Positions 13,860-57,500 of a DNA stretch of 64,000 nt are shown here, one piece after another. The stretch covers positions 1-64,000 of the forward strand of contig JAILPS010000028.1 in NCBI GenBank assembly GCA_024699325.1. The letters are read 5' to 3'. A program made the translations under genes and the position numbers. The DNA comes from Lachnospiraceae bacterium. GTDB taxonomy: Bacteria; Bacillota; Clostridia; Lachnospirales; Lachnospiraceae. The notes below the pieces were generated by a model. That model was not told the DNA's origin, searched no databases, and was given only the letters and a program-made list of their open reading frames with translations. Positions within the stretch are counted from its first letter, which is position 1, and each line of letters opens with the position of its first letter.

Positions 13860-16268
13860 ATGAATTACGGTTATTTTGATGAGGCGAACAGAGAGTACGT
13901 CATCACCAATCCGGCAACACCAGCGCCATGGGCGAACTATCTGGGTTCACCTGCATATGGTGCACTTATATCTAACAACGCCGGCGGCTACAGCTTCGTG
14001 CAGAGTGGTGCCAACGGACGTATCCTTAGATATCATTTTAATGCTGATGACACACCTGGACGTTACATCTATCTTCGCGATGATGAGACAGCAGATTACT
14101 GGTCAGCTTCATGGATGCCGGTAGGCAAGGATTTGTCACAGTATAAGAGCGAGTGCCACCACGGTACAGCTTACACAAACATGATAGCTCAGTACTCAGG
14201 CATCAAGTCTGAGGCTCTCTACTATGTTCCGCTTGACAAGACATACGAGGTTTGGAGACTTAAGGTAACTAACGAGTCTGATAAGGCTAGAACCATCTCA
14301 GCATTTGGTTACGCAGAGCTCACCAACGATTCCAACTATGAGCAGGATCAGGTTAACCTTCAGTATACACTGTTCATCACAAGAACAAGGTTCTTCGACA
14401 ACAAGATCGTTCAGACAATCAACGAGAACTGCACAGGCGCCATGAAGGAAGGCTATCCAACAACAGAGCGTGAGAGATTCTTCGGCCTTGTTGGCAACCC
14501 TGTTGCATCATATAACGGCGATAAGGATGCATTTATCGGCCCATGGCACGGATACGGCAACCCTCAGGCTGTTGTAAACGGCAAGTGTGACAATAAGCTC
14601 AACTACAACTCTAACGGTGTTGGAGCTCTTCACACAGTTATCAAGCTCGCTCCAGGCGAGTCTAAGGAGATCGCTTTCATCCTTGGAAGATACAACGTCA
14701 CAGACGCACAGAAGATTATGGACGGCTATGCAGACCTCGAGAACACAGTTCAGACAGAGCTTGCAGCCCTCAAGAAGTTCTGGCACTCTAAGCTTGAGAA
14801 CTTCCAGGTTAAGACTCCGGATCCACTGTTTGATACCATGGTTAACACATGGAACGCTTACCAGTGCTTCATGACATTCATATGGTCAAGAGCCGCATCA
14901 TTTACATACTGCGGTTTGAGAAATGGTTACGGTTACCGTGACACAGTTCAGGATATCCAGGGCGTTATCCACCTTGATCCAGAGGCAGCAGCAGACAAGA
15001 TCCGCTTCATGCTCTCAGCTCAGGTTGACAACGGCGGCGGACTTCCACTTGTAAAGTTCACACACAATGCAGGCCACGAGGACACACCTGATGATGTCTC
15101 CTATGTTCAGGCTACAGGTCACCCTGCATACAGAGCAGACGATGCTCTCTGGCTCTTCCCTACAATCAAGAAGTACTTAGGCGAGTCCGGCAACGCTGCA
15201 TTCCTCAAAGAGGTTATCCCTTATGCCAACAAGGATGAGGGCACAGTATATGATCACTTAAAGAGAGCCATCCGTTTCTCAGAGGAGAGACTTGGAAACC
15301 ACGGCATGCCTGCAGGTCTTCACGCAGACTGGAATGACTGCTTAAGACTGGGCAAGAAGGGTGAGTCATCATTCGTTGCCATGCAGCTCTACTATGCATA
15401 TTCAGTTCTCAAGGAGTTCGCTTTAGAGCTTAACGACACAGCATATGTTGCAGAGCTTGACGAGAAGCAGGCTAAGTTTGGCAAGCTTGTTCAGGATCTG
15501 TGCTGGGAGGATGACAGATATCTTCGCGGCTACAAGGAGGACGGTCAGGTTATCGGTTCTAAGAACGATCCTGAGGCTAACATGTGGCTCAATCCACAGG
15601 CTTGGTCAGTAATCTCAGGTCTGGCAACACCTGATCAGAGAGATAAGGCTCTTGAGTCTGTTCACAGAGAGTTAAACACACCTTACGGTGTTAGAGTTAT
15701 GGCTCCTTCATACAAGGATCACGCATTTGACGGTGCGCTTGCACTTCTGTTCAACGGTTCTACGAAGGAGAACGGCGGTATCTTCTCACAGCCACAGGGC
15801 TGGATCATCCTTGCAGAGTCACTTGCAGGACATGGAAACCGCGCTTATGAGTACTTCAAGGAGAGCTCACCATCTACCATGAACGACAAGGCTGAGATCA
15901 GAAAGCTCGAGCCATATGTTCACGGACAGTTTACAGAGTCTACAGAGTCTCCATACGAGGGACGCTCACATGTACACTGGCTCACAGGTACAGCTTCAAC
16001 CACCATGGTTGGTATGGTTGAGGGTATGATGGGAATGAGACCTGACCTTCACGGACTCACAGTTGCACCTGCAATCCCTTCTGACTGGAAGGAGCTTAGC
16101 ATGAGCAAGACATTCCGCGGCAAGCATCTGAATATCGTTGTCAAGAACCCTAACGGCGCTCAGGGCGGCTATAAGGAAATGTTCTTAAACGGCGAGAAGA
16201 TGGAGAACAACTACGTTCCTGCAGACAAACTTCTGGCAGAGAACGAGGTAGTTCTTGTAATGTCATAA
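13860..16268 (+). CDS. Cellobiose phosphorylase (GH94)
   Basis: Splits cellobiose with phosphate to glucose 1-phosphate and glucose in the cytoplasm. The 802-residue product has no signal peptide and matches the length of characterised enzymes (about 810-820). The catalytic aspartate falls in GLHADWNDCLRL at residue 490, the position reported for the Cellulomonas gilvus enzyme. Other family landmarks are NGYGYRDTVQD and the C-terminal GRSHVHWLTGTAS. The N-terminus (GYFDEANREYVITNPATPAPW) favours cellobiose over chitobiose or cellodextrin phosphorylases. Codon use is strongly biased to a small set, suggesting high expression. It is monocistronic, between its own promoter and terminator. Confidence 0.93.
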   Translation: MNYGYFDEANREYVITNPATPAPWANYLGSPAYGALISNNAGGYSFVQSGANGRILRYHFNADDTPGRYIYLRDDETADYWSASWMPVGKDLSQYKSECHHGTAYTNMIAQYSGIKSEALYYVPLDKTYEVWRLKVTNESDKARTISAFGYAELTNDSNYEQDQVNLQYTLFITRTRFFDNKIVQTINENCTGAMKEGYPTTERERFFGLVGNPVASYNGDKDAFIGPWHGYGNPQAVVNGKCDNKLNYNSNGVGALHTVIKLAPGESKEIAFILGRYNVTDAQKIMDGYADLENTVQTELAALKKFWHSKLENFQVKTPDPLFDTMVNTWNAYQCFMTFIWSRAASFTYCGLRNGYGYRDTVQDIQGVIHLDPEAAADKIRFMLSAQVDNGGGLPLVKFTHNAGHEDTPDDVSYVQATGHPAYRADDALWLFPTIKKYLGESGNAAFLKEVIPYANKDEGTVYDHLKRAIRFSEERLGNHGMPAGLHADWNDCLRLGKKGESSFVAMQLYYAYSVLKEFALELNDTAYVAELDEKQAKFGKLVQDLCWEDDRYLRGYKEDGQVIGSKNDPEANMWLNPQAWSVISGLATPDQRDKALESVHRELNTPYGVRVMAPSYKDHAFDGALALLFNGSTKENGGIFSQPQGWIILAESLAGHGNRAYEYFKESSPSTMNDKAEIRKLEPYVHGQFTESTESPYEGRSHVHWLTGTASTTMVGMVEGMMGMRPDLHGLTVAPAIPSDWKELSMSKTFRGKHLNIVVKNPNGAQGGYKEMFLNGEKMENNYVPADKLLAENEVVLVMS

Positions 16269-18242: not shown

Positions 18243-20552
18243 TTATACCTCCAAAACGTAGCTTTTTCCAGCTTCTGTGTAGAAGGTGTTTTTGTTGTCG
18301 ATGACTGTCACAGGAACCTCGTGGTCGTCGCAGGTTACCTTGACCGGATGGCTGTATGCGACTGTGGCGGTGTTGCCTGACTTGGAATATATCTCGGCGC
18401 TTGTGAGCACACCGTTCTTCCAGGAAATGCTTACCTCGAAGCCGCCTCTTGCCAACAGTCCGCTCACGTAGCCCTGTGGCCACTGTGGTGGAAGGGCGGG
18501 CAGAAGAGAGATGACATCTCCCTGGCTCTGGAGAATGGCCTCCGCAATACCTGCCGTGGCTCCGAAGTTTCCGTCAATCTGGAACGGAGGGTGGGAGTCG
18601 AGCATATTCATGTTGGTGGATCTGGTGAGTAATAGCATAATGTTTTCAAAAACCTTCTCGCCGTCAAGAAGTCTCGCCCAGAAGTTTATGATCCATGCCC
18701 TTGACCAGCCTGTGTGGCCGCCGCCGTGGCTTAATCGCCTCTCTATGGTTGCCCTTGCGGCTTCTGCAAGCTTAGGAGTTCTGAAGGAGGATATCTGGTC
18801 GGCAGGGTAGAGGGCAAACAGCTGTGAAATATGTCTGTGTCCGATCTCCACCTCGTCGTAGTCCACTGCCCACTCCTGTATCTGGCCGTATTTGCCAATC
18901 TTGGGCTTGGGGAGTCTGTCTCTAAGCTCTCTGAGCTTATCTGTAAATTCATCTGAGCAGTCGAGGATTCTGGCCGCATCTATGCAGTCGCTAAACAGCT
19001 GGAAGATGATCTCTGAATCCATGGATGGACCAATGCACATGCTGCCCTTGGAGCCGCTCTGTGTGAGATAGGTGTTCTCAGGGGAAACACTCGGGCCGGT
19101 CACGAGATTGCCGTGGCTGTCCTCAAACATGTAGTCCACGAAGAAGCGGGCTGCCTCGCAGATGGTGTCGTATTTGCTTCTTAGGAATTCCTTATCCTGC
19201 GTGAAGCGGTAGTGCTCGAAGATATGTAAGCACAGCCACGCGGCGCCCATGGGCCAGATAGTTGCAGGAATCCATATATCCTGCGGTGCGCAGTCGCCCC
19301 AGAGGTCTGTGTTGTGATGCGCAACAAAACCGCCGCAGTCATACATTTCCCTGGCTGTGATGCGCCCGTTAGGTCTCATCTTCTCGATAAGGTCGAAGAG
19401 AGGAGTGTGGAATTCGCTCAGGTTTGTGACCTCCACAGGCCAGTAGTTCATCTCTGTGTTTATGTTGATGGTGAAGCGTCCGCCCCAGGCAGGCCATGCA
19501 TCCTTATTCCATATACCCTGAAGGTTTAGAGGAAGTGAGCCCGGACGGCTTCCGCTTATCATGAGATATCTTCCGAAGTTGTAGTAGAGCTCCACCAGCC
19601 CGTTGTCTGTAAACTTCATGGGCTCGCTGTCAGTGTTTGCGCGAAGTCTCTCAATTCGCTCGTCGGTTGAGAGGTTATTAAGCTCCTCACTTCCGGCCTG
19701 ATCTAAGCACAGCTCACTTCTGTAGAATATGGGCTGGTAATCCTCCAGATGTCTGTCGAGAACCGCCTCGTAGCCCCTTCTTGAAGCCTCGTCCACGTCC
19801 GTAATGCACTGCATGACGTAGTTGTCCATGTAATAGCTGGTTCTCGCTGCGACATAAACAGTCACATCGTCGCAGTCCTTAGCCTCTAGCTTCATGCCGA
19901 TGTTTGACACGCTTCCGCCGTGGGCGTTAACCCTCACAGCTGTGCTGAAACATATTCCGTCCTCACCGCCGCATCCGCCGCTAAGGAAAATAGTGTTGGA
20001 GTTCATGGGACGGTTGTCGTCATAGTAGTCATCCCTTCCGTCAAGCCACACCTTAAAGCTTATGCTTGATGGCTTGTCGGCGCTTATGTGTACAACCAGA
20101 ACATTGTCAGGATATGACACGAAATATTCTCTCTTGTAGTTCACGCCCTGTAAACTATAGGAAACTGAGGCAACCGCGGTCTTAAGATCTAAATCGCGCC
20201 TGTAATCATGTGCCTCCCCCTCGTTGAGGCTATACTCAAACTTCAGGTCCGTCAGAGGCATGTAGTGGCGGCAGTTTGGCGTAACTCCCATCATGCCGTC
20301 CACGGACAGCTTCTCAGCCTCCTCAATCTTCTCCTCGAGAAGAAGTTCCCTGATCTTTGGAAAATAATCAGGACAGCTTGGGTTATTGCGGTTTCTAGGG
20401 CCGCCGCTCCAAACAGAATCCTCATTAAGGCCCACAAAATCATTATTCAGATGGCCATAAACCATACCGCCGATTCTTCCGTTTCCAATGGGGAGCGCGT
20501 GATCAAAATCAACCGCCGCATCCTTATACCATAATACTGTGTTGCTAGCCAT
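18243..20552 (-). CDS. GH95 family glycoside hydrolase, probable alpha-L-fucosidase
   Basis: Probably removes terminal alpha-L-fucose or alpha-L-galactose from glycans. The track begins at 20570, but the ATG at 20552 follows GGAGG by seven bases and gives 769 residues starting MASNTVLWYKDAAVDF. Family landmarks are LPIGNGRIGGMVYG and EDSVWSGGP at the N-terminus, NTEMNYWPVE (the asparagines that activate water), MDSEII (the proposed general acid) and IDGNFGATAGIAE (the aspartate near the C-terminus). There is no signal peptide, so it acts in the cytoplasm on imported oligosaccharides. It is monocistronic, with a shared intergenic region opposite mnmA. GH95 also includes alpha-galactosidase-like specificities, so the exact sugar is uncertain. 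Confidence 0.9.
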   Translation of the reverse strand: MASNTVLWYKDAAVDFDHALPIGNGRIGGMVYGHLNNDFVGLNEDSVWSGGPRNRNNPSCPDYFPKIRELLLEEKIEEAEKLSVDGMMGVTPNCRHYMPLTDLKFEYSLNEGEAHDYRRDLDLKTAVASVSYSLQGVNYKREYFVSYPDNVLVVHISADKPSSISFKVWLDGRDDYYDDNRPMNSNTIFLSGGCGGEDGICFSTAVRVNAHGGSVSNIGMKLEAKDCDDVTVYVAARTSYYMDNYVMQCITDVDEASRRGYEAVLDRHLEDYQPIFYRSELCLDQAGSEELNNLSTDERIERLRANTDSEPMKFTDNGLVELYYNFGRYLMISGSRPGSLPLNLQGIWNKDAWPAWGGRFTININTEMNYWPVEVTNLSEFHTPLFDLIEKMRPNGRITAREMYDCGGFVAHHNTDLWGDCAPQDIWIPATIWPMGAAWLCLHIFEHYRFTQDKEFLRSKYDTICEAARFFVDYMFEDSHGNLVTGPSVSPENTYLTQSGSKGSMCIGPSMDSEIIFQLFSDCIDAARILDCSDEFTDKLRELRDRLPKPKIGKYGQIQEWAVDYDEVEIGHRHISQLFALYPADQISSFRTPKLAEAARATIERRLSHGGGHTGWSRAWIINFWARLLDGEKVFENIMLLLTRSTNMNMLDSHPPFQIDGNFGATAGIAEAILQSQGDVISLLPALPPQWPQGYVSGLLARGGFEVSISWKNGVLTSAEIYSKSGNTATVAYSHPVKVTCDDHEVPVTVIDNKNTFYTEAGKSYVLEV

Positions 20553-20582
20553 AAGCGTACCTCCAGGCACATAATATAAGTG

Positions 20583-21960: not shown

Positions 21961-23976
21961 ATGGACGAGACAAAAATTGAAAACCAGTCCGAGCCTAATG
22001 TATCTGACGACACACAGACTCAGCCGGTTTACACTGCGTCTAAGAAGAACACAAAACACGTAAGAGGAATCGGCGACTATGTATTTATTGTACTTAGAGC
22101 TTTGATAATTCTGCTTGTGTGCTCTATGTTCTTTGCCGCATTTAACCCTGCGTATATCTTTACGAAGGCTAATGGAAACAGCATTAACAACATTTCTTCT
22201 GTTTTCACCGCAGCATTATCTAAGAGCAGTATCGTTGTCAATGATATCAGCAACGCCATAACTAAGGGGGTTTTGGACGCTGCACCATTTAATACGCTTC
22301 ACATTGCCTGCATAATAATTGTTCTGGCGATTATTGTTATCGCAGGAGCAGGCTGCGTGTCAGTTGGCAACAACAGAATGAAGCATCTTGCAACCAAGAT
22401 TGCTGTGGGCGGAGGTTTACTTCTTCTCATCGGCTGCTTCATGGTCAATTCATTCTACAACGGTATTGAGGGTATGATCCACACATCAGACTCGACTGAG
22501 ACATCATATCAGGTTGAGATGAAGAGTCAGACCAACAAGTTCACATCAACATATCTGTGGGATGAGGCGAGCGGCACATATGTCAAGAGCGATTACGCTT
22601 ACAATGACTCAGCAGTTTACGAGATCGTAATCACCAACAACTCAGGTATCGACCTTGTGGGCTGGGCTCTCGAGATCAATGTAGGATCAGGCTACGACAT
22701 TAACGACGTCAAGAAGGTTAACCAGTGGTTCTCACTTCAGCAGCTCTCAAGAGGCGAGACCAAGTACGAATATAATGTTTCTTATAATGAGGAGTCCGGA
22801 ATTCTCTACATCACACCTGATGACTATGAGGTTAAGGACGGCGTTCTTGTCAAGACAACAGATGCAGCTGTAACAGACGCATCTACTATCAAGGCCGGAA
22901 CTCTTAAGATTACATTTATCGCTGAGAATATTCCTGAGGGAACAGAGGTTTCTGTTTACGACGGTGCCGCAACTTCGACAGTTGAGTATGCATATCCTAA
23001 GGGACTTACATTATACTTCGTATTTGCAATCCTTGTTATCGTGCTTGCAATAGCACTTGAGTTCCTTGTACCTAAGGCACTCCATTCAGAGGGATATGAG
23101 ATGGAGACACAGTATCAGCTGTTCTTAATGTTCCTTCCATTCATCCTTCTGATTTTCGCATTCTCATACCTGCCACTTTACGGTTGGAGATATGCGTTCT
23201 ATCAGGATGCCAACTCACCTCTCACAGGTGACAACTTCGTTGGCTTCTATTGGTTCAAGACACTGTTTGCTAACTCAACAAGAAGAGCTCGTTTCTTCCG
23301 AGTTATGATAAACACATTTGCAATGTCTGGTTTAGGACTTATCACAAGCTGGCTGCCTATGGCATTCGCCATCTTCTTAAACGAAGTTAAGAGCACCAAG
23401 TTCAAGAGATTCGTTCAGACATTCTCAACTATTCCAAACTTCATTTCATGGGTATTGATTTATGGTATCGCTTTCGCACTCTTCAATACCAATGGACTTT
23501 GGAACAGTGTATTTGGCGGAACAAGCAATGCACTTCAGAATCCTGACCACATGTGGCTTAAGATGCTTGCATGGGGAACATGGAAGGGTATTGGATGGAG
23601 CGCCATCATCTATATCTCAGGTATCGCCGGTATCGATCAGCAGCTCTACGAGGCGGCTTCAATCGATGGCGCGGACCGTTTCCAGAGAATGTGGAACATC
23701 ACACTCCCTGGTCTGCTTCCTACATACGTTGTAATGCTGGTAATGCAGATTGCAGGTATCCTGAGCAACGGTATGGATCAGTACCTCGTATTCTCTAATA
23801 CATTTACTTCTGAGCCACTCGAAGTACTTGATCTTTACGTTTATAAGGTTGCGTTCGAGGATAACCTCGTGCCTCTGTCTACTGTAGTAGGTATGGGTAA
23901 GTCAGTTATCAGTATTGTGTTATTCTTTGCAGCTAACTCAGCGGCAAAGGCAATCCGTGGAAACGGTATAGTATAA
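21961..23976 (+). CDS. CUT1-type sugar ABC transporter permease (LplB-like) with a large extra N-terminal region
   Basis: The C-terminal ~290 residues (about 385-671) form an ordinary LplB/YtcP-class permease with six spans and the EAA loop EAASIDGADRFQRMWNITLP at about 564-583, which docks the ATPase. The product is 671 residues, about twice the normal 300-320. The extra part has three predicted spans (about 41-62, 113-135, 147-165), then an extracytoplasmic beta-rich domain of roughly 180 residues (165-345), then a fourth span. Within it, VYEIVITNNSGIDLVGWALE resembles the start of cellulose-binding CBM2/CBM3-type sandwiches; this is inference. AGGAGG lies close to the start. It is followed by a second permease and a binding protein. 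No ATPase gene is nearby. Confidence 0.9.
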   Translation: MDETKIENQSEPNVSDDTQTQPVYTASKKNTKHVRGIGDYVFIVLRALIILLVCSMFFAAFNPAYIFTKANGNSINNISSVFTAALSKSSIVVNDISNAITKGVLDAAPFNTLHIACIIIVLAIIVIAGAGCVSVGNNRMKHLATKIAVGGGLLLLIGCFMVNSFYNGIEGMIHTSDSTETSYQVEMKSQTNKFTSTYLWDEASGTYVKSDYAYNDSAVYEIVITNNSGIDLVGWALEINVGSGYDINDVKKVNQWFSLQQLSRGETKYEYNVSYNEESGILYITPDDYEVKDGVLVKTTDAAVTDASTIKAGTLKITFIAENIPEGTEVSVYDGAATSTVEYAYPKGLTLYFVFAILVIVLAIALEFLVPKALHSEGYEMETQYQLFLMFLPFILLIFAFSYLPLYGWRYAFYQDANSPLTGDNFVGFYWFKTLFANSTRRARFFRVMINTFAMSGLGLITSWLPMAFAIFLNEVKSTKFKRFVQTFSTIPNFISWVLIYGIAFALFNTNGLWNSVFGGTSNALQNPDHMWLKMLAWGTWKGIGWSAIIYISGIAGIDQQLYEAASIDGADRFQRMWNITLPGLLPTYVVMLVMQIAGILSNGMDQYLVFSNTFTSEPLEVLDLYVYKVAFEDNLVPLSTVVGMGKSVISIVLFFAANSAAKAIRGNGIV

Positions 23977-23990
23977 GGAGGTGAGCATAG

Positions 23991-24950
23991 ATGGCAAAGA
24001 CTGAAGCAGAAAAAAATGAAATCTTATATGCGAAGACTCATAAGCGCATGTACAGACTGTCTAACAGTGATATTGTATTCACCATAATCAATTATGCGTT
24101 CTTTACAATATTTACAATTAGCTGTATCTTCCCTTTCTACTATCTGTTTATCAACACGATTTCAGATAACTCACTTGTAACCAAGGGTGCAGTTAAGTTT
24201 ATTCCTCAGGGAATACATTTCCAGAACTATGCGTCACTCCTTCAGCAGAGTGATATCATCCAGGCTTTTGGAGTATCAGTTGTTCGTACTATTTTAGGTA
24301 CCATCCTCATGGTGCTCGCATCAGCTCTTATCGGATATCTCGTAACACAGGAGAGAATGTGGCAGAGAAAGTTCTGGTATCGTTTCATGGTTATCACAAT
24401 GTACTTCAACGCAGGTACAATCCCGTGGTTCATGAACATGAAGTTATTAGGTCTCGAGGGTAACTTCTTAGCATACATCATCCCAGGTATTGTTGCTCCA
24501 TACAACATTATTCTGGTAAAGACATACATCGAGTCCATCCCTGCAGAGCTCGAGGAGAGCGCCTTCATCGATGGTGCCGGATACTTCAAGGTATTCTTGA
24601 AGATTATATGGCCACTGTGTACGCCAATCCTTGCGACAATCGCAATATTTGGTGCCGTAGGTCACTGGAATTCATTCACTGACTCCCTTATGTTGATGAG
24701 ATCAGCTGATTCACAGGGCCTAAGAACACTGCAGCACTTACTCTATGATTACCTGCAGAAGGCTAACAACTTAGCGGCTCAGATGAGACAGTCCGGCGGT
24801 GCGGCAGCTACATCAGCGGCAACACAGCTCGATTCAACGGTCGTTCAGTACACGGTATGTATGGCGTCAATCATCCCGATCCTTTTGGTTTATCCGTTCA
24901 TGACAAGATACTTCACGTCAGGTATCATGCTCGGCGCGGTTAAGGGTTGA
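23991..24950 (+). CDS. CUT1-type sugar ABC transporter permease (YtcP/LplC-like)
   Basis: The second membrane subunit of the importer. The 319-residue length is normal. About six membrane spans are visible, with the EAA loop EESAFIDGAGYFKVFLKIIWP near residue 185-205. The start ATG follows AAGGAGGTGAGCATAG. The gap of 14 bases from the first permease indicates co-transcription. The C-terminal region contains a short alanine/threonine-rich insertion (SGGAAATSAATQ) before the last span, common in this subgroup. The likely substrate is an oligosaccharide; identity cannot be read from sequence. Confidence 0.93.
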   Translation: MAKTEAEKNEILYAKTHKRMYRLSNSDIVFTIINYAFFTIFTISCIFPFYYLFINTISDNSLVTKGAVKFIPQGIHFQNYASLLQQSDIIQAFGVSVVRTILGTILMVLASALIGYLVTQERMWQRKFWYRFMVITMYFNAGTIPWFMNMKLLGLEGNFLAYIIPGIVAPYNIILVKTYIESIPAELEESAFIDGAGYFKVFLKIIWPLCTPILATIAIFGAVGHWNSFTDSLMLMRSADSQGLRTLQHLLYDYLQKANNLAAQMRQSGGAAATSAATQLDSTVVQYTVCMASIIPILLVYPFMTRYFTSGIMLGAVKG

Positions 24951-25017: not shown

Positions 25018-26790
25018 ATGATAAAGGAGTCGAAGAGATTTGCTGCTCTCGGTCTTGCAACCGCCATGGTTGCCACAGCATTTACAGGCTGTACAAGTGG
25101 TAATAACACCACCGAGACTACAACTGCAGCAGGTAATACTTCAGCAGAAACAACAACAGCGGGCAACGCAGTAGATCCATCTGCAGAGCCTATAACCATC
25201 ACCATGTTCAGCCAGGTGGCTAACTTCTCAGGCATCCAGCCTGGATGGAGTGGCAGCGTGTTCCTTGACAAGTTCAATGTCAAAATCAACATGGAGCCTG
25301 ACACAAATGGTGCTCTTGCAACTAAGATGCAGGATGGTAACTTAGGAGATATCGTTGTCTGGGGCAGCAGATCTGAGGATTATTTCACAGCTATCAAGAA
25401 CGGTTATCTTCTCAACTGGAACACAGACAACCTTCTCGACAACTATGGCCCATACATCAAGGAGAACTTAGCTACAGCTCTTGAGTACAATGCCAGCGTT
25501 AACGATGGTGTTGTTTATGGCTTCACAGGTACAGTTTCACTTGAGGGAAGCCCTAACGCAGACGGTCTGTTCTACACATGGGATACAAGATGGGATCTCT
25601 ATAATGAGCTCGGACAGCCTGAGATTAACGACCTGGATGATCTTATGAACCTCATGCTTGAGATGAAGAAGATCTATCCAACAGACGAGAACGGCAACGA
25701 GACATATGCTCTGTCTATGTGGCCTGACTGGGACGGCAACATGGTTATGTACGTTAAGGCTTTTGCAACAGCTTACTACGGATATGACGAGTGGGGATTT
25801 GGTCTCTACGATGTAGATACAGGTGTTCTTCACGGAGCACTCGAGGAGAATGGTCCTTACTACACATCACTTAAGTTCATCAACAAGTTATATCAGAACG
25901 GTCTTATCGATCCTGACTCAAGCTCTCAGGATTATCAGAAGATGACTACTAAGATGAAGGCCGGCGGATGCTTCTTCTCAATCTTCAACTACGCAGGTTC
26001 ATCTGTTTACAACACAGCTGAGCACGTTGCAGAGAACAGAATGATGCTTCCTCTTATCCCTAACGATGCCACACCACTTATCTATGGTTCATCTACAACA
26101 GGTAGCGGTTATGAGTGGACAATCTGCTCTAAGACACAGTATCCTGAGCTCTGCATGCAGATCATCAACTGGCTTGCAACTCCAGAGGGTGCTCTTACAT
26201 ACTGGTATGGTCCTCAGGGCGTATGCTGGGACTATGATGCAGACGGCAAGCTCTACTTAACAGATTTTGGTAAGAAGTGCAAGAATGACCGTACAACTGA
26301 TATGTCAGAGGTTGGTTATGCCGGAACATACAACGATGGTTCTCTTCAGGTTAACGCTAACATCTGGGGCACAGCATCTTACATCCCTAACGATCCTAAC
26401 GGTCAGGTATTCTACTCTGACATGTGGGAGAGCAGCTTGACAGATGCACAGTGCGATATTGAGGCACTTTGGAGAGAGTTCACAGGTGAGACTCTCGCTA
26501 TGTACTACTTAAACAACAAGGAAGGCGCTAAGTTATCACTTCCTACAGGCGTTTCTCACACAGATCCTAGCAAGAAGAATGACCTCTATGTTGACTGGAA
26601 GAACGTAGCAGAGACAATCAAGACTGGTTCTTGGAAGTGTATCTACGCTGCTTCAGACGAGGAGTTTGATCAGTTATTCGCAAGCATGCTCAAGGATGCT
26701 CAGGCTTACAACTATGATGCATGTATCGAGTACTCAGCAGCTCAGGCTGAAGTTCGTCATCAGATGGAAGAACTTCTCAAGTCTTTCTAA
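25018..26790 (+). CDS. Sugar ABC transporter substrate-binding lipoprotein (LplA-like), copy 1
   Basis: An extracytoplasmic solute-binding protein of 590 residues, a usual size for LplA-type (cluster for complex oligosaccharides) proteins. The signal peptide ends in the lipobox FTGC (cysteine at about residue 24), followed by a Thr-rich linker (NTTETTTAAGNTSAETTTAGN). The mature part opens ITITMFSQVANFSGIQPGWSG and contains EICMQIINWLATPEGA-like hinge sequence. An AAGGAGG ribosome site sits just before the ATG. Codon use is strongly biased, unlike copies 2 and 3, suggesting this is the main, highly made receptor. A terminator follows. Confidence 0.93.
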   Translation: MIKESKRFAALGLATAMVATAFTGCTSGNNTTETTTAAGNTSAETTTAGNAVDPSAEPITITMFSQVANFSGIQPGWSGSVFLDKFNVKINMEPDTNGALATKMQDGNLGDIVVWGSRSEDYFTAIKNGYLLNWNTDNLLDNYGPYIKENLATALEYNASVNDGVVYGFTGTVSLEGSPNADGLFYTWDTRWDLYNELGQPEINDLDDLMNLMLEMKKIYPTDENGNETYALSMWPDWDGNMVMYVKAFATAYYGYDEWGFGLYDVDTGVLHGALEENGPYYTSLKFINKLYQNGLIDPDSSSQDYQKMTTKMKAGGCFFSIFNYAGSSVYNTAEHVAENRMMLPLIPNDATPLIYGSSTTGSGYEWTICSKTQYPELCMQIINWLATPEGALTYWYGPQGVCWDYDADGKLYLTDFGKKCKNDRTTDMSEVGYAGTYNDGSLQVNANIWGTASYIPNDPNGQVFYSDMWESSLTDAQCDIEALWREFTGETLAMYYLNNKEGAKLSLPTGVSHTDPSKKNDLYVDWKNVAETIKTGSWKCIYAASDEEFDQLFASMLKDAQAYNYDACIEYSAAQAEVRHQMEELLKSF

Positions 26791-26930: not shown

Positions 26931-27668
26931 ATGGAGTTATTTAGTGTTGATGGATTTCTGTTTCAGTTTATGAGGCGACTGCTAGATATTCTGAAACTGA
27001 ATTTCTGCTGGCTTATATGCAGTCTCCCGATTGTGACCATAGGTCCGGCTACTGTCGCTGCATTTTCAGTCTCTCTGAAAATGGTGGACGAATCAGAAGG
27101 CTACGTTATGAGGCAGTTTTTTAAGGAATTTAAGGCTAATCTAAAGATTGGCTTCCCGCTTGGAATATGTTTCCTTGTGGGGCTATACGCCATATATCTG
27201 GACACTCAGCTCATATCTGCAGGTAACCAGGGGCTGATTAAGGGTTATGTTCCCTTCGTGTTCATGGCGGTTACCATCATAACCATATATATTTTTATCT
27301 CTGTGTTCATATATTCCTTCGCCCTTGCGGCCAGATACGAGAATACATTTTTAAGGACGGTAAAGAACTCTCACGAGATATTCCTAAGACATTTCCCTAA
27401 GACTCTGGCGATAATTTTTATTGTGGCGATAGAGCTGGTATTTATCCTGTGGAACAGGGTAACCATTTATTTTGGAATTCTTATAGGGCCTGCCTGCATC
27501 ATCTACACCATAAGCGGCATGGCGCTTCCGATATTCAGGCAGATTGAGCGCGACGGCGGTGCAGTGCTTAAGGAGTATCAGAAGAGCGAAGAAGCGGTTT
27601 TTGAGGACCATCCGGAGAACGATTCCATAGCCGCTAAGGCACATATGAACCTAAAATCTAAGAAATAG
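26931..27668 (+). CDS. YesL-family (DUF624) membrane protein
   Basis: A 245-residue protein with about five hydrophobic segments and the family opening, an aromatic N-terminus followed by LLDILKLNFCWLICSLPIVTIGPATVA. YesL/DUF624 genes sit beside LplB/YtcP transporters and their two-component or AraC regulators in many Firmicutes, but the molecular role is unknown. It lies between binding-protein copies 1 and 2, with terminators on both sides, so it is probably transcribed alone. Its C-terminus is charged and cytoplasmic. Confidence 0.88.
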   Translation: MELFSVDGFLFQFMRRLLDILKLNFCWLICSLPIVTIGPATVAAFSVSLKMVDESEGYVMRQFFKEFKANLKIGFPLGICFLVGLYAIYLDTQLISAGNQGLIKGYVPFVFMAVTIITIYIFISVFIYSFALAARYENTFLRTVKNSHEIFLRHFPKTLAIIFIVAIELVFILWNRVTIYFGILIGPACIIYTISGMALPIFRQIERDGGAVLKEYQKSEEAVFEDHPENDSIAAKAHMNLKSKK

Positions 27669-27761: not shown

Positions 27762-27967
27762 GTTTATGATTAGGTAGTATATTTAAAGGGGGTTGTTATG
27801 AAAACTAAGAGCAAAAGGATACTTGCCTGTGCCATGAGTGGACTTATGGTGGCAGGTGCGTTTGCAGGTTGTAGTCAGACTGACACGGGCACTACAACGG
27901 CGGCTGAGCAGGCGAAGCAGACAACTGCAGCACAGAAGGAGGAGGCCACTGAGGAGGTTACCGAGGC
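27762..27967 (+). repeat. Direct repeat, unit A1 (leader plus signal-peptide coding region)
   Basis: About 206 bases covering the leader (GTTTATGATTAGGTAGTATA), ribosome site, signal peptide and linker of binding-protein copy 2. They recur at 29596-29803 with a 2-base insertion in the leader and four substitutions in the coding part. Confidence 0.92.
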
Positions 27968-29591
27968 TCCTGAGATAGGTAATATATCAGGAACTGTGGC
28001 GGATGACGGGCCTGTAAAACTTAGGTTGTTTGGCCAAGTTACAAGTTACACCGGCATACAGCCTGGATGGATGGGGCAGATCCTCAGGGAAAAGTTTAAT
28101 GTGGAGCTGGAATACATCAATAATGTAAATGGTACGTTTGGTGTTCTCATGGATCAGGAGGACCTGGGAGATATTGTGGTCTGGGGATGTTATTGCGAGG
28201 ACTATCAGACTGCGATTGATAAAGGGCTTCTTCTTGACCTAAATAAGGATAATCTTCTTGAAAATCATGGCTCATATATAAAGGCTAATCTCACAGATTC
28301 CCTTGATGACAATATGGCAAAGAGCGGTGGTGTGTGCTATGGATTTAACGGCAGTTGCAGTGCCGAGAACAGTGTCAATGCAGAGGATTTGTTTCAGGAG
28401 TTTGATGTGAGATGGGATCTCTACAACGAGCTGGGACAGCCCGCCGTGGCTGATTATGACGATCTGCTTCAGTTGATGATCGACATGAAAAAACTCTGTC
28501 CTGTTGATGAGAAAGGCAACGAGACATATGCATTTCCAGTATTTAGAGATTGGGATATTTACAATCAGGCTATGACAATTAGCTTAGCCAGTGCCTACTC
28601 AGGCTCCGATTTTGATCTTTTCTTTATGAAGGATGGGGCTACAGGTGAAGTGAGCGCCGTGACACAGAAGAACGGCCCGTATTATGAGGCACTTAAGTTT
28701 GTGAATGCGCTCTACAGAAACGGTCTGGTTAATCCCAATGCCAAGCAAGAGGATTATACTGTGGTTTCCGACGATGTGAAAGCCGGAAGATATCTTATGA
28801 GCCCGACCGATTATCTGGGAAGAGATTTATATAACACAGATGAGCATATAGCAGAGAACAAGATGATGCTTCCAATTATGCCGTCTGAGGCTAAGATGCC
28901 AGTCCGTTGTTCCAATACGGTAGGTAACAGAGGTATATTTACAATAGGAGCCAAGACTGAACATGCTGAGCTTTGCATGGAGATACTCAACTGGCTGGCA
29001 ACTCCTGAGGGAACACTCACAATTATTTACGGTCCAAGAGGCATATGCTGGGATGTTGATGCTGACGGTTATCTATATCTGACAGATCTGGGAAGAACAT
29101 ACAACCTAGAAGATAGATATACAGAGATTACTTATGACGATATTATAAGCATTTATGGCGAAGGTATTCTTATGCTTAATGCCAACGTGTGGTCATATTC
29201 ATCACAAATTCCGTCTGATACAGCGGGCTTAGACCTTGCAGAGGGACAGTCTTATTATTTTGGCAGATGGAAGAACGAGCAGGGTGAGGCTTCATGTGAT
29301 CTGGAGGAGGCATGGAGAACGTATGCCGGATGCAACAGCGTTGATGAATACATTCTGAAGAATGATAATTCCTTGTACATGCCATACCACGAATATATTC
29401 AGCTGCCGGAGAGCGGAGACATTGCCAGCAAATATGAGGCGGTAGGCAAGGTTGTTGTGGACGGCTCGTGGGCATGCATATATGCTGACAGCGATGAGAA
29501 GTTTGAGGAGCTGTTTGACAAGATGGCGGCTGACGCAGATGCAGCGGGCTTAGAGGAGTGCTATCAGTATATCGTTGAAAGCTTTAAGTAA
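27798..29591 (+). CDS. Sugar ABC transporter substrate-binding lipoprotein, copy 2
   Basis: A 597-residue paralogue of the copy 1 protein. The signal peptide ends in the lipobox FAGC; a Thr/Glu/Ala linker (TTTAAEQAKQTTAAQKEE) follows. The mature part retains YTGIQPGWMGQILREKFNV and the hinge ELCMEILNWLATPEGTL. GGGGG with spacer precedes the ATG. Compared with copy 3, three long blocks are near-identical at DNA level while stretches between them are strongly diverged. Codon use is weaker than in copy 1. It has its own promoter but no permease of its own, so it probably feeds the upstream permease pair with a different ligand. Confidence 0.92.
   Translation: MKTKSKRILACAMSGLMVAGAFAGCSQTDTGTTTAAEQAKQTTAAQKEEATEEVTEAPEIGNISGTVADDGPVKLRLFGQVTSYTGIQPGWMGQILREKFNVELEYINNVNGTFGVLMDQEDLGDIVVWGCYCEDYQTAIDKGLLLDLNKDNLLENHGSYIKANLTDSLDDNMAKSGGVCYGFNGSCSAENSVNAEDLFQEFDVRWDLYNELGQPAVADYDDLLQLMIDMKKLCPVDEKGNETYAFPVFRDWDIYNQAMTISLASAYSGSDFDLFFMKDGATGEVSAVTQKNGPYYEALKFVNALYRNGLVNPNAKQEDYTVVSDDVKAGRYLMSPTDYLGRDLYNTDEHIAENKMMLPIMPSEAKMPVRCSNTVGNRGIFTIGAKTEHAELCMEILNWLATPEGTLTIIYGPRGICWDVDADGYLYLTDLGRTYNLEDRYTEITYDDIISIYGEGILMLNANVWSYSSQIPSDTAGLDLAEGQSYYFGRWKNEQGEASCDLEEAWRTYAGCNSVDEYILKNDNSLYMPYHEYIQLPESGDIASKYEAVGKVVVDGSWACIYADSDEKFEELFDKMAADADAAGLEECYQYIVESFK
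28968..29069 (+). repeat. Direct repeat, unit C1 (102 identical bases inside copy 2)
   Basis: These 102 bases encode the hinge region ELCMEILNWLATPEG and onward. They recur without any difference at 30792-30893 in copy 3, although surrounding sequence has diverged. Confidence 0.93.
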
Positions 29592-29595
29592 TAAG

Positions 29596-29803
29596 GTTTA
29601 TGATTAGGTAGTATATTTAAAAAGGGGGTTTTTATGAAAACTAAGAGCAAAAGGATACTTGCCTGTGCCATGAGTGGACTTATGGTGGCAGGTGCGTTTG
29701 CAGGTTGTAGTCAGGCTGACACGGGCACTACAACGGCGGCTGAGCAGGCGAAGCAGACAACTGCAGCGCAGAAGGAGGAGACCACAGAGGAGGTTACCGA
29801 GGC
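29596..29803 (+). repeat. Direct repeat, unit A2 (leader plus signal-peptide coding region)
   Basis: Partner of the repeat at 27762-27967, placed directly before and into binding-protein copy 3. The copy includes the leader but not the upstream promoter elements seen for copy 2. Confidence 0.92.
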
Positions 29804-31412
29804 ACTGCCTGAGACTGTGTCTCACGACGAGACGGTTACGCTTACAGTGTTTTGTGGCTTAGGCGGTTACAGAGGCATACAGCCAGGATGGATGGGACAG
29901 ATCCTTGAGGAGAAGTTTAATGTTAAGTTTGACTATGTACTTGATTACGAACGTATCCAGCTGTTTCTCATGAATCAGCAGGACCTGGGAGATATTGTGG
30001 TCTGGGGAGATTATGACGAGGACTATCAGACTGCGATTGATAAAGGGCTTCTTCTTGACCTAAATAAGGATAATCTTCTTGAAAATTATGGCTCATTTAT
30101 AAAGGCTAATCTCACAGCCTCTCTTGATGACAATATGGCAAGAAGTGGCGGCGTATGCTATGGATTTAGCGGTAATAATGCTCTTGAAAATAGTGTAGAT
30201 TACTATGATGGAACATTTATAAGATGGGATGTCAGATGGGACCTCTATAACGAGTTGGGACAGCGCGCTGTGGCTGATTATGACGATCTGCTTCAGCTTA
30301 TGATTGACATGAAGGCACTCTGTCCTACAGACAGTGAGGGCAATGAGACTTTTGCGCTGCCTATACACAGCGAGTTTGATGATTATTATCTTACAAATGC
30401 AGTGCTTCTCGCCAAAGCGTATGCTGGAGTGGACTTTAAGGACTATGCCGTATATAGCGGGATTACAGGAGAGTATTCTAATATTCTCGCTGAGGATGGG
30501 CCATATTATGAGGCTCTTAGATTCCTTAACGCTCTCTACAGGAATGGTTTAATTAATGCAGATGCTAAGGATTTGAATTATCTGGATGTTAAAGATCAGC
30601 TTTTAGCTGGAAGATATTTGATGAGCACGGTCTATTATCTGGGCGGAGATGTTTATAACACAGATGAGCATATCGCAGATAATAAGATGATGCTTCCAAT
30701 TATGCCATCTGATGCGAGAGGGATTGTTTACTGCGATAAAACTGTAGGAGACGGCGGAGTATTTTCAATTAGCGCCAAGACAGAACATAAGGAGCTTTGC
30801 ATGGAGATACTCAACTGGCTGGCAACTCCTGAGGGAACACTCACAATTATTTACGGTCCAAGAGGCATATGCTGGGATGTTGATGCTGACGGTAAACTCT
30901 ATCTGACTGATACAGGAAGAGCTTGCAGGAATGACATGAACACTGAGATTACATATAATGGCGTGACATATCCATTTCGTGAAGGATTACTCATGATTAA
31001 CAATAATATATGGAAATACAGCTCTCTTATTCCGTCCGACACATTGGACTTAAATCTTGCTGCCGGTAATACATTTTACTGCGAAAGCTGGGATAATGAG
31101 CAGGGCGCGGCTTCATGCGATTTAGAGGAGAGTTGGAGGACATATTCAGGATGTAAAAATAGTGAGGAGTTCATTCTTAAGAACGACAATACTGTATATA
31201 TTCCTTACAGCGGATATATTGCTGTGCCAGATAGCGATGTCCTGGCTTCTAAGTATGAGACGGTAGGCATGATTATTGCAGACGGTTCATGGGAGTGCGT
31301 ATATGCAGACAGCGAGAAGAAGTTTGAGAAGCTCTTCGACAAGATGACTGCTGATGCATATGCAGCGGGACTACAAGAATGCTACGAGTATTGTATTGAC
31401 AACGTGGAATAA
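29634..31412 (+). CDS. Sugar ABC transporter substrate-binding lipoprotein, copy 3
   Basis: A 592-residue paralogue with the same lipobox (FAGC) and linker as copy 2. The mature part opens VTLTVFCGLGGYRGIQPGWMG. It lies 42 bases after copy 2, with a GGGGG ribosome site, and no promoter is apparent, so it is probably read from the copy 2 promoter. Like copy 2 it matches its partner almost exactly in three blocks (leader/signal, residues after DLGDIVVWG, and the hinge) and differs much elsewhere. A good terminator ends the pair. Confidence 0.92.
   Translation: MKTKSKRILACAMSGLMVAGAFAGCSQADTGTTTAAEQAKQTTAAQKEETTEEVTEALPETVSHDETVTLTVFCGLGGYRGIQPGWMGQILEEKFNVKFDYVLDYERIQLFLMNQQDLGDIVVWGDYDEDYQTAIDKGLLLDLNKDNLLENYGSFIKANLTASLDDNMARSGGVCYGFSGNNALENSVDYYDGTFIRWDVRWDLYNELGQRAVADYDDLLQLMIDMKALCPTDSEGNETFALPIHSEFDDYYLTNAVLLAKAYAGVDFKDYAVYSGITGEYSNILAEDGPYYEALRFLNALYRNGLINADAKDLNYLDVKDQLLAGRYLMSTVYYLGGDVYNTDEHIADNKMMLPIMPSDARGIVYCDKTVGDGGVFSISAKTEHKELCMEILNWLATPEGTLTIIYGPRGICWDVDADGKLYLTDTGRACRNDMNTEITYNGVTYPFREGLLMINNNIWKYSSLIPSDTLDLNLAAGNTFYCESWDNEQGAASCDLEESWRTYSGCKNSEEFILKNDNTVYIPYSGYIAVPDSDVLASKYETVGMIIADGSWECVYADSEKKFEKLFDKMTADAYAAGLQECYEYCIDNVE
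30792..30893 (+). repeat. Direct repeat, unit C2 (102 identical bases inside copy 3)
   Basis: Exact partner of 28968-29069, coding for the same hinge segment of the binding protein. Confidence 0.93.
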
Positions 31413-31597: not shown

Positions 31598-32809
31598 ATG
31601 ACGGACAACATCACAACCAAGGACGCTGAAGAACCTGTTGAGAGCATGGAGGAGTGGATGCAGAGGCATCTCACGCGTGATCTTCTGTGGACGCTTCCGG
31701 TTCCAAGCCGCGCATTTTTGAAGGAGATGGGCTGGAATAACGGCTGCTATCAGGTGGTCGTATCCACAGGTTATAAGAAGAAGAAGCTGGCGAAGGGCTA
31801 CAGGCTTAGCGATATGCTTCTTCTCAACAAAAACGAAAACATCAGAATAAGCTATTACTACGATTCGGGCTTCGAATTCATCCTGCTTCTCGACCGCGTG
31901 GCGGTTAATAAGTTGGACAGTATCGTGAAGCACTGGAAGAGTATGCCACCTCAGGAGAACAGTGTCTTCTATGACCTGTTTTTTTCTTATGGCCGCGTGG
32001 TCAGCGACCCGAAGGATATCGGAATATCCTACAACCAGGCCAGAAAACTCATGGACAGACAGTTCTTCAGCCAGAAGGGCGAGCACATTCTGGGCACTGC
32101 TGAGATGGAGCTTTTAGAGGAAATGCAGACTCACGAGGAGTTAGACGTTGAGAAGGCGGATGAATACTGCGATTTGCTGTTTTCAAGTGTTCAGGCCATA
32201 AACCACAGCAAGCTCACGGAGATTCTAGACGATATCTACTCCTACCTAAGCTACTGCAAGACTACTGAGGAGCAGGTTAAACTGTTTTTGCTGGATCTGT
32301 TCATGCTTATCAGAGAGAAGCTGCACGCAGCCTACAGCGGCGATAAGATATTTGAGGAATCCACCAGATATTACCTTAACGTAATCTACTCGAAGAATTA
32401 TCTCTACGAGATTATCGAGACCTTCAGGGATTCTCTTGAGGTCGTTATGTACATTATCGGCGGTCCAAGCCGTGACAATGTGTTAAATGACATCCTAAAC
32501 TATGTGGCTCACAACTATGACAGAAGCCTGAAGCTTGAAACCCTGGCACCTCTGTTTGGCTACAACAGCGCATATCTGGGCAAGATTTTCCGCAAGGGTG
32601 TGGGCGTTCCATTTACAAGGTATGTGGACATGGTCAGGATTGAGAGGGCGAAGGAGCTTCTCATGAGGGGCAACGACAAGGTCTACAAGATATCCGAGAC
32701 GGTGGGATATCACAGCGTGGATTACTTCCACAGGAAGTTCCAGAAGTACGTGGGCATGAGCCCTGCGGAGTATAGAAGAAATTACCTCGAGACAGGACGC
32801 GAGGAATAG
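31598..32809 (+). CDS. AraC-family transcriptional regulator without a receiver domain
   Basis: A 403-residue protein. The last ~100 residues form two helix-turn-helix units of the AraC type (LETLAPLFGYNSAYLGKIFRK and ISETVGYHSVDYFHRKFQKYVG, then SPAEYRR). The N-terminal ~300 residues have no recognised ligand-binding cupin or response-regulator receiver. The central part (FFSYGRVVSDPKDIGISYNQARKLM) resembles the linker region of YesN-type regulators that control LplB/YtcP transporters. Its place just after the binding-protein cluster suggests it regulates that locus, but it also lies only 17 bases before parE. Confidence 0.88.
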   Translation: MTDNITTKDAEEPVESMEEWMQRHLTRDLLWTLPVPSRAFLKEMGWNNGCYQVVVSTGYKKKKLAKGYRLSDMLLLNKNENIRISYYYDSGFEFILLLDRVAVNKLDSIVKHWKSMPPQENSVFYDLFFSYGRVVSDPKDIGISYNQARKLMDRQFFSQKGEHILGTAEMELLEEMQTHEELDVEKADEYCDLLFSSVQAINHSKLTEILDDIYSYLSYCKTTEEQVKLFLLDLFMLIREKLHAAYSGDKIFEESTRYYLNVIYSKNYLYEIIETFRDSLEVVMYIIGGPSRDNVLNDILNYVAHNYDRSLKLETLAPLFGYNSAYLGKIFRKGVGVPFTRYVDMVRIERAKELLMRGNDKVYKISETVGYHSVDYFHRKFQKYVGMSPAEYRRNYLETGREE

Positions 32810-54395: not shown

Positions 54396-54553
54396 GTTGC
54401 ACAAACTTAAACGATTTCGTGGTGCTTTTTGCCCTCTAAGCCCTCCAAAACTTGGCTATTATGTACATTGAAAAGGGTCAAATGCCCATTTATAATGGTA
54501 AATAGCGTAAAGGTACGTACAAATGTCCCAATTAGTTGCACAGTTGTTGCACA
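54396..54553 (+). repeat. Three GTTGCACA repeats around the GH53 promoter
   Basis: Copies lie at 54396-54403, 54535-54542 and 54546-54553. The last two are 11 bases apart, one helical turn, and fall in the transcribed leader downstream of the likely start point. They could be binding sites for a regulator of the galactanase gene. Confidence 0.5.
54468..54496 (+). promoter_or_regulatory. GH53 galactanase promoter
   Basis: TTGAAA and TATAAT are 17 bases apart, about 78 bases upstream of the chosen start codon. Confidence 0.7.
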
Positions 54554-54573
54554 AGGGATTAAGGAGGCTTATG

Positions 54574-57500
54574 ATGAGGAAGGGTTTTAAAAATGCTCTA
54601 TGTGCGGTTCTCACCGTGGCCATGGCTGTTCCATGCGTGGATTACGGTCTGGTTGCAAGAGCAGCGAGTTTGAGCGTGGGAGACGACGTGATAGTTAACG
54701 GCGATTTCTCCACAGATATCTGGGATAGCAGCGGAACATGGTCTGTTGGCAGTTTTTCAGATGCCACACTTAACACGGAGGCATGCTGGGTAACAAAAGA
54801 TACGGCGCTTCACATGTACACGGAGGGCGGAGGAACAGAGTTCACCCTGTCACAGTCCGTGGAGTTGGACGCAGGCACATACACATTTGCGGCTGATATT
54901 ATTGGCTCCGGCTTCTCGGTTTCTGCAGCCGTAGGTTCAGATACAGGAAGCTCACACGCAGTCAGCAGTGAAAGCGCATACACAGAGGTCAGCGACTCAT
55001 TTACAGTTAGCTCTGAGGGAACATACACCTTCTATCTGTACATAACAGACACATCTGCGGGGGCGTGGGGATATATTGACGACGTGAGCCTCACACTTAC
55101 AACCGCAGCATCCACCTCCACAACTACAGAATCTACAGCGGTTCTGGCGGATATCGCAGTTGACAAGGTGTCAAACCTCAACGACGATTTTATAATGGGC
55201 GTGGATATTTCTTCATACATATCAGAACTCGAATCAGGGGTTACATATTCATACACATATGGTAATCAGACTATCACAGTTGATGAGAACAGCCCTGAAA
55301 ACATGATTAAGATACTGGCGCTTGGCGGCGTCAACTACATAAGAGTGCGCGTCTGGGTTGACCCTGCTGACTCTGACGGCAAAAGCTACGGCGGCGGTCA
55401 CAACGATGTGGCAACAGCTGTGAAGATTGCCCAGGCAATCGTGGCTTCGGGCTACAAGGACAGCGTGAAAATGCTTGTGGACTTCCACTACTCAGACTTC
55501 TGGACAGACCCTGGCAAGCAGTATGTTCCGAAGGCGTGGAGTTCATATACCACAGACCAGAAGGCGACTGCGGTTGGTGAGTTTACAAAATCAGCTCTTA
55601 ATTCAATCATGGCGACAGGCGTAACGGTTGGAATGGTTCAGATAGGAAACGAGACCACAACAGGCATCTGCGGCGAGACCTACTCAGACTGGAGCGGCAT
55701 GGCCAAGATATTTAACGCCGGCGCTGCTGCTGTCAGGGAGATTGATAAGGATATTCTTATTGCGGTACATTTCACAAACCCTGAGAAGACTTCAACCATC
55801 GAGGGGCTTGCAGACAGCTTAAACAACTACAGCGTGGACTACGATGTTTTTGCGACATCATATTATCCATACTGGCACGGAAGCCTGTCAAACCTCACAA
55901 CCATACTCACATATGTTTCAAACACCTATGGCAAGAAGGTTATGGTTGCGGAGACCAGCTATGCCAACACCATGGACGACACAGACGGACATGGCAACAC
56001 CATCAGCGAGAGCTCAGATGTGGGCGATTACTGTTCATATTCCTTCACGGTTCAGGGACAGGCCAGAGAGTGGGCAACTATAGTTGACGCGGTAAATGAT
56101 GTAAACACAAACATGGGCGTCACAGGAAGCTCGGCTGATTTTGACAGTACCTACGGTATCGGCGTATTCTACTGGGAGCCTGCGTGGATCACAGTTGGCG
56201 ACACAACAGGACTTACAGGCACAGATTTTGATGAGAGATACGCCGCAAACCAGACTATCTGGGAGACCTACGGCTCAGGCTGGGCTTCAAGCTACTCAGG
56301 CGGATACGATTCAGACGCCGGCACATGGTACGGCGGAAGCGCGGTTGACAACCAGGCTCTGTTTGGCGCGGACGGAGTGGCACTTTCATCAATCCAGATG
56401 TTTAACTATGCGAGAACAGGCTCATATGTGGATGACAGCACAATAGGCGTTGAGAGCATAGATGTGGACAGCGATATAGAGATTGAGGCCGGAGAGAGCG
56501 TGACATTTCCTTCGACTGTCAGCGTCACATACACAGACGACAGCAAAGTTAGCGAGTCAGTTACATGGACAGGCGCATCTGCAGTCGACACAGACACTGT
56601 GGGAGAGTACGAGGTCACAGGTTATGTGACATTTTCTAAGACAGTGTCCACAGGCACATATGCGGGCCTTACGGGCGCGGATGTGAGCATCACAGTTACG
56701 GTTGTGCCCTACAACATGCTAAAGGATATAGATTCTGCAAACTACAGTTTTGAGAGCGGAAGCACGTCGGCTTTCTCCATCACAAACATGGACGTTAAAT
56801 ACGAGACAGCTAACGCTTATGATGGCAACTATTCACTCCACTGGTATCAGTCAAGCGCCACAACTGTGGGAACCACATACGGCGGCGCATCAGGAACGGG
56901 CATAGCGCTTGAGGCGGGAACCTACACCTTCGAGGCTATGGCGCAGGGCTATGCAGGAGACACAGTGACCATGTCAGCCACTGACGGAAGCAGCACTTTG
57001 GCTACAGGGGACGCCGAAACTCTTACAGGATGGCAGAGCTGGAAGACACCTTCTGTCACATTTACGCTCGACAGCGACACAACAGTTTACTTCTACATGG
57101 AGGTTGGCGTTTCAGACGGCGGCTGGGGCAATATCGACTGCTTAAAACTCTATGGAAATGTAGCAAGCACATACACAGTTTCAACATATTCCATGACAAC
57201 CGGAGGCGTTACAGGTGTTGCAACCCTTACAGGCGGTGGGGCGTACAGCGAGGGAAGCTCTGTGACAGTCACAGCACCTGAGGTCGATGCTATGGAGTTT
57301 GCAGGCTGGTATGCTTACAGCGGCAGCTCATACACGGGAAGTGCCCTTAGCACGGATCTGGCTTACACATTTACAGTATCTGAAGATACGGCTCTTGCGG
57401 CAGTTTATGACGCATCAGGAAGCAGATGCATCACGGTTATAGACGGCGACTCACAGGAGAGCAGCTATTATGAGATAGGTACAGAGTTTAGCGTGACTGC

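Follow-up and report, generated by a model that had tools for sequence, protein, structure and literature searches.

The locus studied here raises the question of what a large folded domain is doing in a sugar permease. In the window (the whole stretch of 64,000 nucleotides of Lachnospiraceae DNA that was analysed), the open reading frame at 21961-23976 (+) starts with ATG and encodes PermA, a protein of 671 aa. The original prediction described it as a 671-residue permease of the LplB class with four added membrane spans and an external beta-rich domain, a description that proved accurate by hydropathy, AlphaFold modelling and Pfam; the limits it gave for the domain (residues 165-345) were right within about 10 residues.

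Anatomy and topology of PermA

The only Pfam match in PermA is BPD_transp_1 (residues 471-659; 59.2 bits for a cut-off of 26.4). The whole permease core aligns, with no large insertion, with LplB-type permeases and with AlgM1 of the Sphingomonas alginate importer (PDB 4tqu; E 6e-53), the match to MalF being weaker. Both hydropathy and the AlphaFold model place four extra hydrophobic helices ahead of this core and, between the third and fourth of them, about 170 residues forming about a dozen strands. PermA differs from AlgM1, which has neither the four-helix extension nor the domain, and departs in the same way from the typical LplB/CUT1 subunit of about 300 residues and six helices, although its core is ordinary. 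Its parts are as follows:

21961-23976 (+): PermA (671 aa), ABC importer permease of the LplB/AlgM1 type, extended at its N-terminus and carrying the inserted domain (open reading frame, Pfam, AlgM1 match)
22069-22461 (+): extension helices 1-3 (residues 37-56, 108-133 and 138-167; AlphaFold and hydropathy), present without the insert in relatives
22480-22980 (+): inserted CBM2-related beta domain (residues ~174-340), with core tryptophan W235 and candidate platform aromatics Y269 and Y289
22999-23070 (+): extension helix 4 (residues 347-370; AlphaFold and hydropathy)
23107-23973 (+): permease core (residues 383-671), with BPD_transp_1 and the EAA loop (EAASIDGADRFQRMWNITLP)

The loop that holds the domain contains 11 lysines and arginines versus 28 aspartates and glutamates, and the turn between helices 2 and 3 carries only positive charges. 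By the positive-inside rule, this distribution suggests that the beta domain faces outside, where it would stand next to the pore on the outer side of the membrane. The full-length AlphaFold model, based on ten aligned sequences, has a pLDDT mostly below 50 in the core, too low for contacts between domain and core to be read from it.

The original prediction had considered that the N-terminal region could be a separate protein joined by mis-assembly. A mis-assembly or fusion artefact is ruled out: G001, G002 and G003, three genomes of the genus that were assembled independently, share this architecture and encode full-length PermA orthologues with the same insert, in open frames of 641-658 aa and with no internal stop. 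Across the four copies, the core is 71-75% identical, against 38-49% for extension helices 1-3 and 34-40% for the domain. The genus sample consists of these four genomes, two of which are 71-76% complete, and the surveys reported below refer to sampled genomes.

Relationship of the inserted domain to CBM2 modules

Pfam detected no CBM_2 domain (PF00553) in whole PermA or in the inserted domain, which alone gave no match at all. In profile-profile comparison with hhalign, the domain profile, aligned with 14 Pfam-confirmed CBM2s of relatives, gave a probability of 94.9, a P value of 4.5e-8 and a score of 51.2, versus a best score of 14.7 (P 0.1) for 60 column-shuffled controls and a P value of 0.3 for the extension profile used as negative control. 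The match persisted once the CBM2s of the window's own genus were removed (P 2.3e-7). The same comparison with the CBM3 profile (PF00942) indicated no homology (P 0.25), and the domain profile found only chance-level matches among PDB sequences. When the domain profile A2, made of five sequences, was run over 397 genomes, the matches beyond its own copies corresponded mainly to CBM2 domains of membrane-anchored GH5 cellulases, one of them encoded in the window's own genome, and to HD-GYP ectodomains (E near 1e-3).

The structural predictions are compatible with this result. The domain is predicted to be all-strand, with a pLDDT of about 49-84 in the full-length model. Foldseek comparison, proposed in the original prediction for residues 165-345, gave with this model top matches that include CBM2s (6qfs, 3ndy, 1exg), CBM3s and modules borne by chitinases, at modest E values (1e-3 to 5e-2). 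A model of the domain alone (pLDDT 66.7, pTM 0.66) retrieved these families again, interspersed with adaptin-like proteins and other sandwiches. Taking the Foldseek searches together, CBM2s are among the top matches at an E value of only about 5e-3, and other sandwiches match too. Of the CBM2/CBM3-type sandwich announced by the original prediction, the CBM2 part is supported by both hhalign and Foldseek; the CBM3 part holds for the fold only, and CBM3 descent is rejected on sequence.

The domain shares with CBM2 modules such as the Cellulomonas fimi cellulose-binding domain (PDB 6qfs, 1exg) common descent, the beta-sandwich prediction and the core motif N-x-S/T-G...GW. It differs from them in escaping detection by Pfam, in the loss of one platform aromatic and in two longer loops: some 18 residues are added ahead of the YEYNV strand, and the loop that follows the DY position is extended. 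CBM2 modules are attached to enzymes, whereas the inserted domain lies between helices of a transporter. Descent from CBM2 is well supported by these sequence comparisons, and the missing CBM_2 match together with the two longer loops indicates a diverged relative rather than a plain CBM2. Taken jointly, the anatomy of PermA and the CBM2 descent of its domain are very probably correct.

Binding by CBM2 modules uses three surface aromatics, as established for CBM2a of C. fimi. The second and third of these positions align with Y269 and Y289, which are tyrosines in all five copies of the domain. The first is occupied by tryptophan in two copies (L012 and L018), tyrosine in L010 and lysine in L011, with no clear residue in the window copy. 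Such partial retention of the platform would neither demonstrate nor exclude glycan binding.

History of the extension and the domain

Insert-less permeases were used to build a profile of the extension, which matches proteins in 33 of the 397 family genomes, including 31 that do not belong to the genus, and also in another family of the same order. The extension without the domain occurs in about 37 permeases from beyond the genus. Their complete frames are almost all of 484-539 aa, with a short loop between helices 3 and 4, a loop that varies among the relatives of PermA. The extension thus predates the domain. In a maximum-likelihood tree of 41 permease cores, the four insert-bearing permeases form a single clade (100/99) nested among insert-less ones and adjoining L019 and L097. 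The latter has 488 aa; the 5' end of L019 is cut, and its counterpart in G154, identical over the stretch that both share, has the extension without the insert. According to the tree and the homology data, the simplest history is a single gain of the domain in the ancestor of the window's genus, and among the 397 related genomes searched its presence within such a permease appears confined to that genus.

The LplB relatives among the matches listed for 250 family genomes are mostly of 301-400 aa, in agreement with the usual size of 300-320 residues given in the original prediction, next to the extended class of 484-539 aa. Above 600 aa, these matches include only PermA and one protein of 692 aa (L153 2626-4704, G145:C26), an LplB-type permease whose different multi-helix N-terminal part is unmatched by the extension profile. 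The four-helix unit appears to be tandemly repeated several times before the LplB core of another permease, L101 (G417:C19; 1037-aa open frame), which suggests that the extension unit is itself modular.

Reuse of the module and related ectodomains

A second copy of the domain is present in G002, at the outer C-terminus of a 705-aa non-transport protein (L044 8971-11085, G002:C85) composed of a zinc-ribbon-like N-terminal motif, one membrane helix and PD40-like repeats. It is 63% identical to the permease copy of the same genome, whereas all other pairs of copies are 31-40% identical. The domain is therefore a portable module, which to judge from these identities was transferred by copying from one surface protein to another, unrelated one, probably in the G002 lineage. 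Such reuse favours an independent function of the domain over one confined to contacts within the transporter. The 705-aa gene stands among several other genes for zinc-ribbon membrane proteins.

The recurrence of the module also bears on the proposal that the domain is a passenger with no specific function, tolerated in a permissive outer loop. The variability of the helix 3-4 loop, the partial conservation of the platform aromatics and the existence of relatives that do without the domain are all in line with this idea. We nevertheless consider it quite improbable, given that none of the four genomes sampled in the genus has a disrupted domain in spite of its low identity, that the domain alignment retains 20 invariant columns, and that another surface protein bears the domain as well.

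HD-GYP proteins and histidine kinases of Lachnospiraceae (L025, L030, L139-L141, L143, L148 and others) also bear a CBM2-related outer domain (hhalign with CBM2, P 2.1e-9) and are likely a class of polysaccharide sensors. Likewise, carbohydrate-binding modules form the outer part of RsgI anti-sigma factors (PMC4711584). RsgI with its CBM3 and the HD-GYP proteins with their CBM2-like ectodomains resemble PermA in displaying a CBM-derived outer domain on a membrane protein that is not a glycosidase. By analogy, the PermA domain could be a sensor, relaying the binding of an outside ligand through the four-helix unit in order to tune transport or signalling. This is improbable: these are signalling proteins, whereas PermA is a transporter subunit that has no cytoplasmic signalling domain, and its domain is closer to the CBM2s of enzymes (P 4.5e-8) than to the ectodomains of the HD-GYP proteins and kinases (P 5.5e-4).

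The operon and its solute-binding proteins

PermA is followed by a partner permease and a solute-binding protein, and its family and operon show that it is one of the two membrane subunits of an oligosaccharide ABC importer. The neighbouring genes are:

18243-20570 (-): GH95 glycosidase, divergent neighbour in the window, G001 and G003
23991-24950 (+): PermB, partner permease, 319 aa (BPD_transp_1), whose adjacency to PermA is conserved
25018-26790 (+): SBP1, solute-binding protein, with orthologues in relatives both with and without the domain
26931-27668 (+): DUF624 membrane protein, distantly MusI-like (104.7 bits, under the NCBIfam cut-off of 160)
27798-29591 (+): SBP2, SBP1 paralogue, for which no close match was found in sister genomes
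29634-31412 (+): SBP3, 67% identical to SBP2
31598-32809 (+): AraC-type regulator, conserved at the operon end

The order PermA-PermB-SBP1-DUF624-AraC-gyrB is common to G001 and G002. The AraC-type regulator of the window has about 400 aa, versus about 510-520 aa for the versions in several relatives that share the operon, the start of which resembles a receiver domain; the shortened form seems typical of the window's genus.

The three binding proteins announced by the original prediction are indeed present, with SBP2 and SBP3 at most 45% identical to anything other than each other. The suggestion that the domain accompanies several binding proteins, for which the collection of homologues longer than 600 residues had been proposed, is contradicted by G002 (97% complete), which has the domain and a single protein of this kind. 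Both G001 and G002 carry only SBP1 at the locus, split into two frames in G001; no other close relative of SBP1, SBP2 or SBP3 was found in G002, and G001 has one further relative (41%) away from the locus. A single binding protein is likewise encoded in the operon of relatives that lack the domain. Several binding proteins therefore do not account for the domain, and a link with them is rejected. A comparison of SBP1 with PDB sequences, made for a clue to the substrate, gave no match.

The domain could still serve as a docking or gating platform that holds the solute-binding protein over the pore, its CBM2 ancestry being only the source of the fold. The model would be the P2 domain of Escherichia coli MalF (PDB 2r6g), also a sugar ABC permease that bears a sizeable folded domain on its outer side. 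P2 (residues 91-271) contacts MalE (PMC3150292) and is located between MalF helices 3 and 4 (PMC2246101). It resembles the PermA domain in size and in subunit class, and the fast divergence of the latter (34-40% identity versus 71-75% for the core) is consistent with a docking role. However, P2 is inserted within the core, ahead of the second core helix and immediately preceding the part alignable with PermA, whereas the PermA domain precedes the whole core, so that any likeness would be one of working and not of descent; homology to P2 is unsupported, no sequence likeness having been found. Since, in addition, relatives with the same kind of binding protein manage without the domain, and G002 has a copy outside any transporter, we consider docking unlikely, although it is the strongest competitor of the reading discussed next.

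A possible glycan-holding role

The reading that we tentatively favour, at slightly less than even chances, is that the domain is a glycan-holding module at the mouth of the pore. In this scenario, the CBM2-derived domain, which the ancestor of the genus gained, most simply once, in the outward loop joining helices 3 and 4 of the extension, would bind a glycan chain or oligosaccharide weakly and keep it at the pore mouth, the solute-binding protein could be loaded locally from the glycan so held, and the cargo might be trimmed after import, as the GH95 neighbour suggests. The CBM2 homology, the CBM2 structures retrieved by Foldseek and the A2 matches to CBM2s of anchored cellulases argue for glycan holding, as do the invariant Y269 and Y289, the non-transport copy of G002 and the divergent GH95 gene in three of the four genomes. 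Against it count the loss of the first platform position, the missing Pfam match, the two longer loops, the modest Foldseek E values and the occurrence of the same operon in domain-less relatives. The thick cell wall counts against it as well, since it would keep an insoluble polysaccharide from a membrane-proximal domain; contact with such a polymer is unlikely, and chains short enough to cross the wall would be the likelier ligand.

Carbohydrate-binding modules are known on enzymes, scaffolds and sensors. Full-text literature searching revealed no importer permease described as bearing one, in an incomplete coverage of journals that does not prove absence. It is possible, but somewhat doubtful, that the membrane subunit of this ABC importer is itself a glycan binder, using a captured domain of CBM2 origin to supply the binding protein or the pore locally; if true, a carbohydrate-binding module would work here as part of a transporter. 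The role of outer permease domains has otherwise been studied mainly on MalF-P2, and the close relatives without the insert offer a natural before-and-after comparison for what such a domain adds to an importer.

As for the cargo, the GH95 gene is divergent to PermA in the window, G001 and G003 and does not occupy this position in G002; in the window, mnmA lies between the two. The named GH95 matches of known structure are fucosidases, and this neighbour makes a fucosylated or galactosylated oligosaccharide a plausible cargo. The GH94 enzyme of the window at 13860-16268, further upstream and not shown to be linked to the PermA operon, is nearest to N,N'-diacetylchitobiose phosphorylase (PDB 8bou, 1182 bits) and not to cellobiose phosphorylase. 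A 1291-aa protein of the window (54523-58398) that combines a GH53 domain with Big_4 and InlB-like repeats is probably a surface galactanase.
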